A DNA stretch of 64,000 nt, taken from an uncultured Verrucomicrobiae bacterium (lineage in GTDB: Bacteria > Verrucomicrobiota > Verrucomicrobiia > Limisphaerales > AAA164-E04). The stretch's first letter is position 1. The number at the start of each line of letters is the position of its first letter. The stretch covers positions 27,818 through 91,817 of the forward strand of contig CALSPN010000001.1 of assembly GCA_943788245.1 (NCBI GenBank), given 5' to 3'. A program made the translations under genes and the position numbers. The notes under the pieces are model-generated. The model was given only the letters and a program-made list of their open reading frames with translations. It did no database searches and was not told the origin of the DNA. Positions 49,614 to 60,018 of this stretch are shown here, piece after piece.

Positions 49614-50970
49614 TTAGGCCATCCAACCCGGTCTGTATTCGCGTTGGATGATGTCTGAAATATCCATATTTTTGGCCTGAAGTCGCGTGCTATCCCATTC
49701 GATGCGCCCCCCAGCCTTGAGAGCAGCGTTACCCAGAAGGATCGATTCTGTCATTTGTGAGGCATAATCGAAATTGGACAGGGCAGGTTTACCGCCACGC
49801 ATTGCTTCTACCCATTCATTCTTCATGGCCTGATCACCTCCACCTATGCGGGGGATCCAGGCATCCGGTGCCTCATAGTCCTTGAAATCATCGCCGGGCA
49901 GCAGTTTCCAACTCGATCCGTAATCATTGGGTGAGTAAAGTATACCTTTGTCGCCTACAATAATTGAACCACTGTTGGTTGGTTTTTCACCGTGAAAAAG
50001 ATCCATGGGGGGAAGGTTCTTTTTTCCATCCGGGAATTTACCTTCATACCAGTAATAGCTTAGAGGAGGCATGGCACCTCGGGCACCAAATTCGGTTTTG
50101 GTGGTGGCCCATGCGGGAAAAGTTTCTTCATTGATCGGACCATGATCCAAGGCCTCAACGCTGAGAGGATGACCAAGATTGAGTGCCATGAAAGCCAGAT
50201 TCGCTGTATGACAGCTCATGTCTCCGATAGCTCCAGTCCCAAAGTCCCACCAACCGCGCCACTTGAATGGATGGTAGGCATTGTGATAAGGGCGATCGGG
50301 AGCGACTCCCAGAAATAGATGCCAGTCCACATGATTTGGAATCGCGGGGGTCTCGTTCGGACGTGCGGTAATGGAAGGAGCTTGTGGCCACACTGGGCGA
50401 TTCGTCCATACATGAACCTCCCGGACGGCACCAATCGCACCTGATTGAATCACTTCTACTCCTCGGCGAAGACCATCAGAGGCGGTGCCCTGATTGCCCA
50501 TTTGGGTGGCTACCTTGTATTGACGTGCAACCTGCCCCATGCGCCGAGCTTCATACACTGAATGCGTCAGGGGTTTTTGACAATAAACATGTTTGCCGAG
50601 GCTCATGGCCAACAAACCCGCAGGAGCGTGCATGTGATCAGGAGTACTGATTGTTACCCGCATCAATTTCGGTATGCATCTCCTCGAGCATCTTCCGAAA
50701 GTCCTTGTATTTTTTGGCTTTTGCAAATTTTCCACCCTTCGCATCCAGTTTTGTTAGATCAATATCACAAAGAGCGACAACATCACCCAAATTCCCTGCT
50801 TGGTCGATATCTCCAGACCCCTTTCCACCCACACCAATACCGGCAAAAGCGATGCGGTCATTGGCTCCAAAAACGCGTTTTGGGAAAAAGTTGAAAGTGA
50901 ACGCGGATGCGGCAGCGGTCCCAATGAAGGACCGGCGAGAAACATAGGTCTTACTGAATTTATTGGCCAT
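49614..50970 (-). pseudogene. Gfo/Idh/MocA family oxidoreductase (Tat-type signal), split by one single-base frameshift near 50657
   Basis: ORF 50638..51039 gives MANKFSKTYVSRRSFIGTAAASAF...NDRIAFAGIGVGGKGSGDIDQAGNLGDVVALCDID...HTEIDA; ORF 49614..50744 continues VTISTPDHMHAPAGLLAMSLGKHVYCQKPLTHSVYEAR. Dropping one C at 50657-50659 joins them as EIDAVTISTPDH. Confidence 0.88.
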
Positions 50971-51310
50971 GATATCCATGTAGTGAAAATTTGATTCAGG
51001 GTGTGATTTCAAAGTAATCACTCCAAAAAACCAAAGCAAGACTTGATCTCTTCAAAGTGTCCTTAAAAATGGAAAGATCAGGCTGTGTCCTGATGCATAG
51101 GGTCAGGCATGAGGAGCGGCATTCTGAGAGTCATGCAGCGTTGTTGCGAGACGTCTATTTTGCAGGTAAAGGATAATAGATGAGTTTTGAATCCCTTCCC
51201 CCTCTCCAGCGTGGGTGATTCATGCAGGGCTTGTGTCAACTTCATTTGATTCAGGATTTGTCATTTTTCCAATTGCAGCAGGTAAGTAATCACGGGTAAA
51301 CTGCTTACCG

Positions 51311-52018
51311 ATGGTTATGAAGAAAACACTTGGACGTGGACTTTCCCAGCTGATGAAGGGGAACGAGACCAAGGGAACCGATGCCAAAACGGCTAAGGCC
51401 CTTGCGAGTCCGGTGGATTCAGCTGAAGCTCCCTTGTCCGGCGTTTCGAAACTGATGCAAGGTCATCACGAACCAGCTGAAGTCCAGCCTGCAGCTGATG
51501 GGGTATCCAACCCTTTTCAGCAAGACGCCCCTTCCAGGACGGTTTTTTCAGTGCGCCTTGTGCCTGACTGGATCTACTACCTGAGTGATGTTGTTTTGCT
51601 GTCAGCTGTTCTCTGGATGGTTATTCTCAGCCCTACAGCACCTACGTGGGTCGAATGGACGACCAGTCTGTTGCTAACCGTCCTGGCTGGTTTGATAGGT
51701 GTTTATCCCTGGGCTCGCAACGTGCTGGGCAACGATTCGCCTGTTCAGTCAGGTGAAATACCTCAGTGGAGTCTGGCTTCGAAAACGCAGCCCAATGGAA
51801 CCGAGAAGGTATATGTCATGCATCTCCACGAGCCTTATACCGCAGTCGAAATTACGGAAACCAGTTGGAGCGGTGTACAGCCCAGACCCATCTGGCTATC
51901 GGGTACCCCTGATATCTCACCTGAAGACATGAAGCGCTTGCTCATGGGGGCAGCCGATTTTTACAAAAAACATCAGACTGACAAATCGCACTCGAATTCC
52001 AACGTAAGTGCAGCTTGA
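51311..52018 (+). CDS. Two-TM membrane protein with ParB-like N-terminal motif
   Basis: MVMKKTLGRGLSQLMKGNETKG N-terminus; TM1 YYLSDVVLLSAVLWMVILSP, TM2 WTTSLLLTVLAGLIGVYPW; no ParB HTH domain. Confidence 0.65.
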   Translation: MVMKKTLGRGLSQLMKGNETKGTDAKTAKALASPVDSAEAPLSGVSKLMQGHHEPAEVQPAADGVSNPFQQDAPSRTVFSVRLVPDWIYYLSDVVLLSAVLWMVILSPTAPTWVEWTTSLLLTVLAGLIGVYPWARNVLGNDSPVQSGEIPQWSLASKTQPNGTEKVYVMHLHEPYTAVEITETSWSGVQPRPIWLSGTPDISPEDMKRLLMGAADFYKKHQTDKSHSNSNVSAA

Positions 52019-58848: not shown

Positions 58849-60018
58849 ATGGAACCAAGCATTGAGCATAGTCGACGTGACTTTCTGGGCAAGATGGCTT
58901 CATCCGGTCTCGTTCTAGGGGCTCCTTGGATTCGAGCCAGTACTGCGGAACCTTTGGTCAAGATACTGGATTTGAAAAAAATCAGTAGGTCACCTGAAAT
59001 GTACCATGGCTGGCCCACTTTATCTCTTTTGCAAAATGGCGAAATGGTCCTCGCCTGGTCTGGTGGGAGAGAAGGTCATGTATGCCCATTTGGGCAGGTT
59101 CATTACATGAAATCGCGCGATGGGGGGGGAACACTGGTGCTGGCCCAGAGTCATTTTGGATAGTGGTTTGGATGACCGCGATGCAGGTGTTCTTGAAACC
59201 AGAAGCGGTACCTTGCTAGTCACTACCTTCAGTTCTCTGGCTTACGAGCCGATTTTTCGGCGAGCGCTTGCATCAGGAGACTGGGATTCCAAACGGATTC
59301 GGCGTTGGACAGCAGCCCATAACCGCCTTGATAGTGAGGCCCGAGAACGTGAATTGGGACAATGGATGATACGTTCCGAGGATGGAGGTAAATCCTGGTC
59401 TCGCCAATACGATTCCATTGTCAACAGCCCGCATGGGCCTATTCAATTGATGAGTGGCAGATTGGTATACGCCGGAAAAGAGCTCTGGACAGACAGACAG
59501 CGGGTTGGCCTCTGTGAATCTTTGGATGATGGGAAATCCTGGCGATGGTTATCGGAAATTCCCGCACGCGATGGGGATGATCCCAGAAATTATCATGAGC
59601 TTCATGCGGTTGAAATGCCCGACAGAAGGCTCGTCGTTCACATACGCAATCACAATCCAATGCGCACGCCCAAGAAACCCTTCAGTGCGAATCATCCGAT
59701 GGGGGCAGGTCCTGGACCAAGCCCCGAAGTATTGGTGTATGGGGCTTGCCCTCCCATTTGCTGGGTCTTTCAGATGGCAGGGTCCTGATGACTTACGGTT
59801 ATCGAAGGCCCCCCTTTGGCAATCAGGTGCGAATCAGCGAGGATGGACGCAAATGGTCTGCTCCAAGGACGATTTCAGATGATGGCGCCTCGGTGGATCT
59901 CGGATACCCCAGCACCGTACAATTGAAGGATGGCACATTTGTAACCGTCTGGTATGAACTTCCCCGAAATGCCGCAAACGCCGTGTTGCGACAAGCGAGG
60001 TGGGTATTGGAAAGCTGA
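58849..60018 (+). pseudogene. Sialidase/BNR-repeat exo-alpha-sialidase-like protein, split by two single-base frameshifts
   Basis: ORFs 58849..59163, 59120..59788 and 59746..60018 are successive parts: RRDFLGKMASSGLVLGAPWIRAS; SRDGG|EHWCWPRVILDSGLDDRDAGVLETRSGTLLVTTFSS; WMIRSEDGGKSWS; YWGLPSHLLGLSDGRVLMTYGYRRPPFGNQVRISEDG. Breaks at the G8 run 59122-59129 and near 59740. Confidence 0.85.

Follow-up and report, generated by a model that had tools for sequence, protein, structure and literature searches.

The protein encoded at positions 51311 to 52018 of the window, i.e. of the whole stretch of 64,000 nucleotides from an uncultured Verrucomicrobiae bacterium analysed here, is likely an inner-membrane partner of the sole chromosomal ParA, second to ParB. 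Chromosomal ParA is usually described with one activating partner, ParB. We infer from the sequence that the family protein binds ParA, probably as a bivalent, membrane-anchored ligand and likely as an activator of its ATPase. The protein carries MVMKKTLGRGLSQLM in its N-terminal part, and its features, all on the + strand, are as follows.

51311..52018, +: whole gene, ORF of 235 aa (homologues in the family genomes and across the order)
51329..51355, +: motif 1, LGRGLSQLM, residues 7-15, candidate ParA-binding motif of the ParB type (conservation, ParB alignment, PWM)
51431..51457, +: motif 2, PLSGVSKLM, residues 41-49, degenerate second copy with the Arg lost and the hydrophobic positions kept (alignment)
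51458..51568, +: low-complexity variable linker, putatively cytoplasmic (no conservation and variable length in a 44-sequence alignment)
51572..51628, +: transmembrane helix 1, with the invariant Asp93 (codon 51587-51589; hydropathy)
51659..51715, +: transmembrane helix 2, with a loop of about 10 residues between it and helix 1 (hydropathy)
51758..51988, +: C-terminal soluble domain, predicted strands followed by a helix (alignments, low-confidence model)

The gene and its distribution

The host genome of the window comprises 3.64 Mb in 57 contigs and is 79% complete. Homologues were detected by single-sequence search in 10 of the 11 family genomes (99 to 29% identity), and the graded identities within genus and family (99, 93, 64, 54 and 29-40%) indicate that the ORF is a real gene and not a chance frame. 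With a profile search the range widened to some 20 more families of this order (Pedosphaera-like Verrucomicrobiota). In a second scan of the order at least 40 of the 106 sampled genomes showed, among the matches listed, a match extending from the N-terminus through the second membrane helix; three family-f1 genomes possessing the full-length gene appear among the matches listed by its downstream part only. Compared with the G004 homologue, the window gene exhibits four synonymous and one non-synonymous differences in codons 1-13 of the motif 1 region. Distant homologues begin M(K/S/A)K.xLGRGL, suggesting that translation may in fact begin at Met3, an in-frame ATG at 51317.

Searches of Pfam (E up to 10), NCBIfam, PHROGs and PDB sequences assigned no meaningful family to the window protein, and there was no match to it in a plasmid collection.

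A ParB-type motif and its second copy

Coordinates and sequence of the ORF were as first described in an earlier sequence-only reading of this DNA, and the ParB-like N-terminal motif proposed there was confirmed both by a ParB PWM and by conservation. An orthologue check set beforehand as the refutation test showed that no other part of the family protein is as conserved as the N-terminal motif. In 48 homologues, which were gathered partly via the motif so that the counts are biased upward, the positions of motif 1 were occupied by L/M (47), G (48), R/K (48), x, L/I (48), x, x, L (48) and L/M/I (47); the basic residue, essential in the short N-terminal peptides of ParA/MinD ATPase partners, is thus R or K in all 48. 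The invariant columns of a 14-sequence and a 44-sequence alignment are G8, L14 and D93, and L7, R9, L11, G44 and L96 are among the nearly invariant ones. Two homologues (L184, L185) begin MAASGLGKGL(T/G)SLL though the first profile had matched both only from motif 2 onward, which argues against the conservation being solely a search artefact. Motif 1 is also present in three matches missed by the regular expression (L191, L202, L203). A close relative, L039, carries a damaged motif (SGRGIGELK).

A six-frame scan of 11 genomes for the pattern LGRGLxxL was rejected as too permissive; the best-looking extra match in the window genome (L112) lies out of frame within a peptidase-like gene.

ParBs of the same family begin MSKTPLGRGLGALLGG or MAKSPLGRGLSALLSG. 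With a PWM built from 17 ParBs only, the N-termini of the family reached a median of 20.9 bits, with 42 of 46 at 14.7 or more and the window motif at 21.6 bits, and the highest value for an unrelated ORF among about 600 was 7.6 bits. Motif 1 therefore fits ParB as well as genuine ParBs do, and the resemblance is far above chance. Running the family profile over 338 phylum genomes also gave matches confined to its N-terminal part, and all eight of those read were ParB. In M. xanthus ParB, mutation of L11, L15, L18 and I19 strongly impaired ParA binding, and R13 is required for ATPase stimulation and largely dispensable for binding (PMC12462528). Motif 1 aligns with all five of these residues (L11, R13, L15, L18, I19).

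As the sequence-only reading had also stated, the DNA-binding domains of ParB are lacking: neither the parS-binding helix-turn-helix nor the C-terminal dimer domain gave a Pfam or NCBIfam match in the window protein, which consists mostly of linker and the two membrane helices, and the ParB/Srx CTPase domain (PF02195) is absent from it at E up to 10 in Pfam. A PF02195 search of the genomes picks up ParB genes separate from the family gene. The window protein is therefore not a member of the ParB family, yet the contact it uses may equal that of ParB.

The second copy of the motif, previously called "weaker", turned out to be conserved as well: the pattern xG(V/L)xx(L)(L/M/I) is found in 45 of 48 homologues, 10-33 residues past motif 1. 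The glycine, the V/L and the two last hydrophobic residues are retained, and the position of the Arg is mostly taken by P, A or S. Three members possess a full G-R-G second copy (L029 VGRGVGSLL, L048 IGRGLGTLI, L059 LGRGMRTLI). The simplest reading of the alignment is that motif 2 represents a duplicated motif whose basic residue was mostly lost. Judging from ParB R13A, such a copy would be expected to bind ParA but not to activate it. Each ParA dimer offers two such ParB-binding sites (PMC12462528), so that a single chain could in principle bridge both.

Candidate partner, gene neighbourhood and membrane hairpin

Of the ParA/MinD-type ATPases proposed earlier as partners, ParA was found and MinD was not. 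One strong canonical ParA was found with a ParA-type model in 10 of the 11 family genomes, including that of the window; in the eleventh we detected ParB and no strong ParA match. A MinD-like gene was not seen in the family genomes with PF13614, for which the E. coli and B. subtilis controls were positive. We therefore rejected a MinD-type partner and consider ParA the candidate. The ParA was compared with the PDB entry 8ray, which, judging by a D-to-A change and the length, we take to be a construct of M. xanthus ParA. Y81, D110, E117, L150 and L155 are kept, and the replacements of V116 and L152 are conservative; the differences at E82, L187 and L192 speak against ParA as the partner. The ParB-binding pocket is, according to this alignment, mostly kept and hence a candidate site for the motif.

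The loci of the family gene show no link to a parA or parB operon and no conserved operon. Its sole conserved neighbour is a gene for an SNF2-type helicase directly upstream on the same strand, in seven loci from five families (L057, L058, L060, L066, L069, L073, L199), with gaps of 6-128 bp in the six loci measured. Both observations would suit an alternative in which the motif, borrowed from ParB or convergent, now binds a target other than ParA, e.g. another P-loop ATPase or this helicase. We regard this as unlikely: all ParA-contacting positions are kept, including the Arg, and ParB of the same genome carries the same motif. Moreover, the other matches to the ParA-type model, judged by size only, were Mrp-sized or kinase-like proteins of about 730 aa. 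The exceptions were, in G007, a frame of 274 aa that matched weakly and in part and, in G006, a ParA-like protein of 419 aa. About 2 kb separate the family gene from parB in G044, a single such case among some 60 that carries little weight.

A divergent oxidoreductase gene beside the family gene is local to some members. In the window a Gfo/Idh-type oxidoreductase gene is present as two overlapping ORFs (49614-51039); close relatives possess one intact ORF of 474 aa, indicating a frameshift or an assembly error in the window genome. Likewise, a gene at 58849-60018 of the window is divided into three ORFs, whereas its counterpart in L018 is a single ORF of 374 aa or more, again pointing to a frameshift or assembly error.

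Two membrane segments and a soluble domain had been described in the sequence-only reading, and hydropathy together with a low-confidence model agrees with this: hydrophobic helices span roughly residues 88-105 and 117-135, and a soluble tail comes after them. D93 in the first helix is invariant in 44 sequences. Positive-inside counts gave no decision between the topologies. The AlphaFold2 model, calculated from three near-identical sequences, had a pLDDT of 39, too low for a fold search; the very low pLDDT of the linker in this low-confidence model is weak evidence of disorder. The C-terminal domain occurs in the window's family and a few others, and most members end just past helix 2 (about 120-170 aa). 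We read the domain of the window protein as an addition of its lineage.

Matching hairpins were also found in other verrucomicrobial proteins. Across the order, a second kind of protein has a coiled coil and then a GrpE-like domain behind the hairpin (L061:1495-2388, also L013, L188 and L189; PF01025, E 4.5e-8), and this protein is possibly a membrane-bound relative of GrpE. PF01025 is absent from the window protein (Pfam, E up to 10). Other orders of the class have proteins of 400-570 aa (L117-L145) that open with the hairpin and contain a coiled coil and a conserved C-terminal domain (IGIGN(K/R)(L/P)..RG.GPGLSW...GKWRWET); L118, the sole one tested, matched no Pfam family above the cut-off. 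The GrpE-like and coiled-coil types have the hairpin with its conserved Asp in common with the window family. They lack the ParB motif and possess a C-terminal domain of their own, GrpE-like or other. Fused to such different domains, the hairpin looks like a shared anchor module.

These fusions across the class, together with the observation that partner proteins devote an N-terminal peptide to the ATPase and the remainder to a cargo (PMC10241942), might suggest that the family protein is a passive membrane cargo positioned by ParA, like McdB on carboxysomes, so that ParA would distribute the protein itself or whatever its hairpin and C-terminal domain carry, with chromosome segregation unaffected. 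This appears improbable, as in most members nothing follows the hairpin, and with the segregation ParA itself as the ATPase a cross-talk with ParB would be expected. That the N-terminal segment, short, basic and hydrophobic beside a membrane protein, is a mere basic amphipathic leader aiding membrane insertion and matches ParB by coincidence is very improbable given the invariant Gly and Leu spacing, the existence of a second copy and the more than 10 bits which separate the family from other ORFs in the ParB PWM.

Proposed function and comparison with known systems

If the protein is a second partner of ParA, its N-terminus would be placed in the cytoplasm, where motif 1 would enter the pocket that ParA forms at its ATP-dimer interface and, by way of the Arg, would stimulate ATP hydrolysis. 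Motif 2, mostly without Arg, would add binding and could fill the second pocket of the same ParA dimer. The outcome might be a transient link of nucleoid-bound ParA-ATP to the membrane, or a membrane site capturing and releasing ParA. As a consequence, the ParA gradient would be shaped or the nucleoid tied to the membrane during segregation. The earlier suggestion that the protein could tether ParA or the segregation machinery to the membrane agrees with this anatomy. For the fuller picture of a dedicated integral-membrane ParA ligand in one order, with two copies of the ParB motif (one activating, one merely binding) and forming a regulated, ATP-dependent nucleoid-membrane link, we see about even chances.

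Should this be true, a conserved membrane protein copying the peptide of ParB would compete with ParB for the pocket of ParA or share it, and ParA hydrolysis would be placed at the membrane. In Verrucomicrobiota, for which we found little published on either subject, chromosome segregation and the coupling of nucleoid and membrane would become accessible to study. A description of a membrane protein bearing ParB's own motif was not found in the open-licence literature, where the motif string led to unrelated papers only.

The system most closely resembled is ParB/Spo0J of chromosomal ParABS, which likewise carries the ParA-binding and -activating motif at its extreme N-terminus followed by a disordered linker. 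Unlike ParB/Spo0J, the window protein lacks the ParB/Srx CTPase, parS-binding and dimerisation domains, and its family possesses a membrane hairpin and usually a second copy of the motif.

TipN, PopZ, HubP and PadC are not known to use the N-terminal peptide of ParB; PadC contains a ParB-like CTP-binding domain. No sequence relation was found between the window family and TipN, PopZ, HubP or bactofilin-PadC. These proteins direct ParA to a fixed location in the cell, as is proposed here for the window family. HubP, TipN, PopZ and PadC are membrane or polar regulators of ParA, and HubP, which acts on ParA1, is a transmembrane protein (PMC7333895).

Partners of ParA/MinD ATPases generally act via a short basic N-terminal peptide (PMC7993993, PMC10241942). 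As in the window family, such a peptide is carried by an otherwise unrelated protein in TlpT (partner of PpfA), PomX (PomZ), McdB (McdA) and MinE (MinD). The window family differs from TlpT, PomX and McdB in being an integral membrane protein, and from MinE, which acts on MinD, in occurring in genomes in which no MinD-like gene was seen. Furthermore, these four proteins serve dedicated ATPases, whereas the window family carries ParB's own motif and apparently addresses ParB's ParA.
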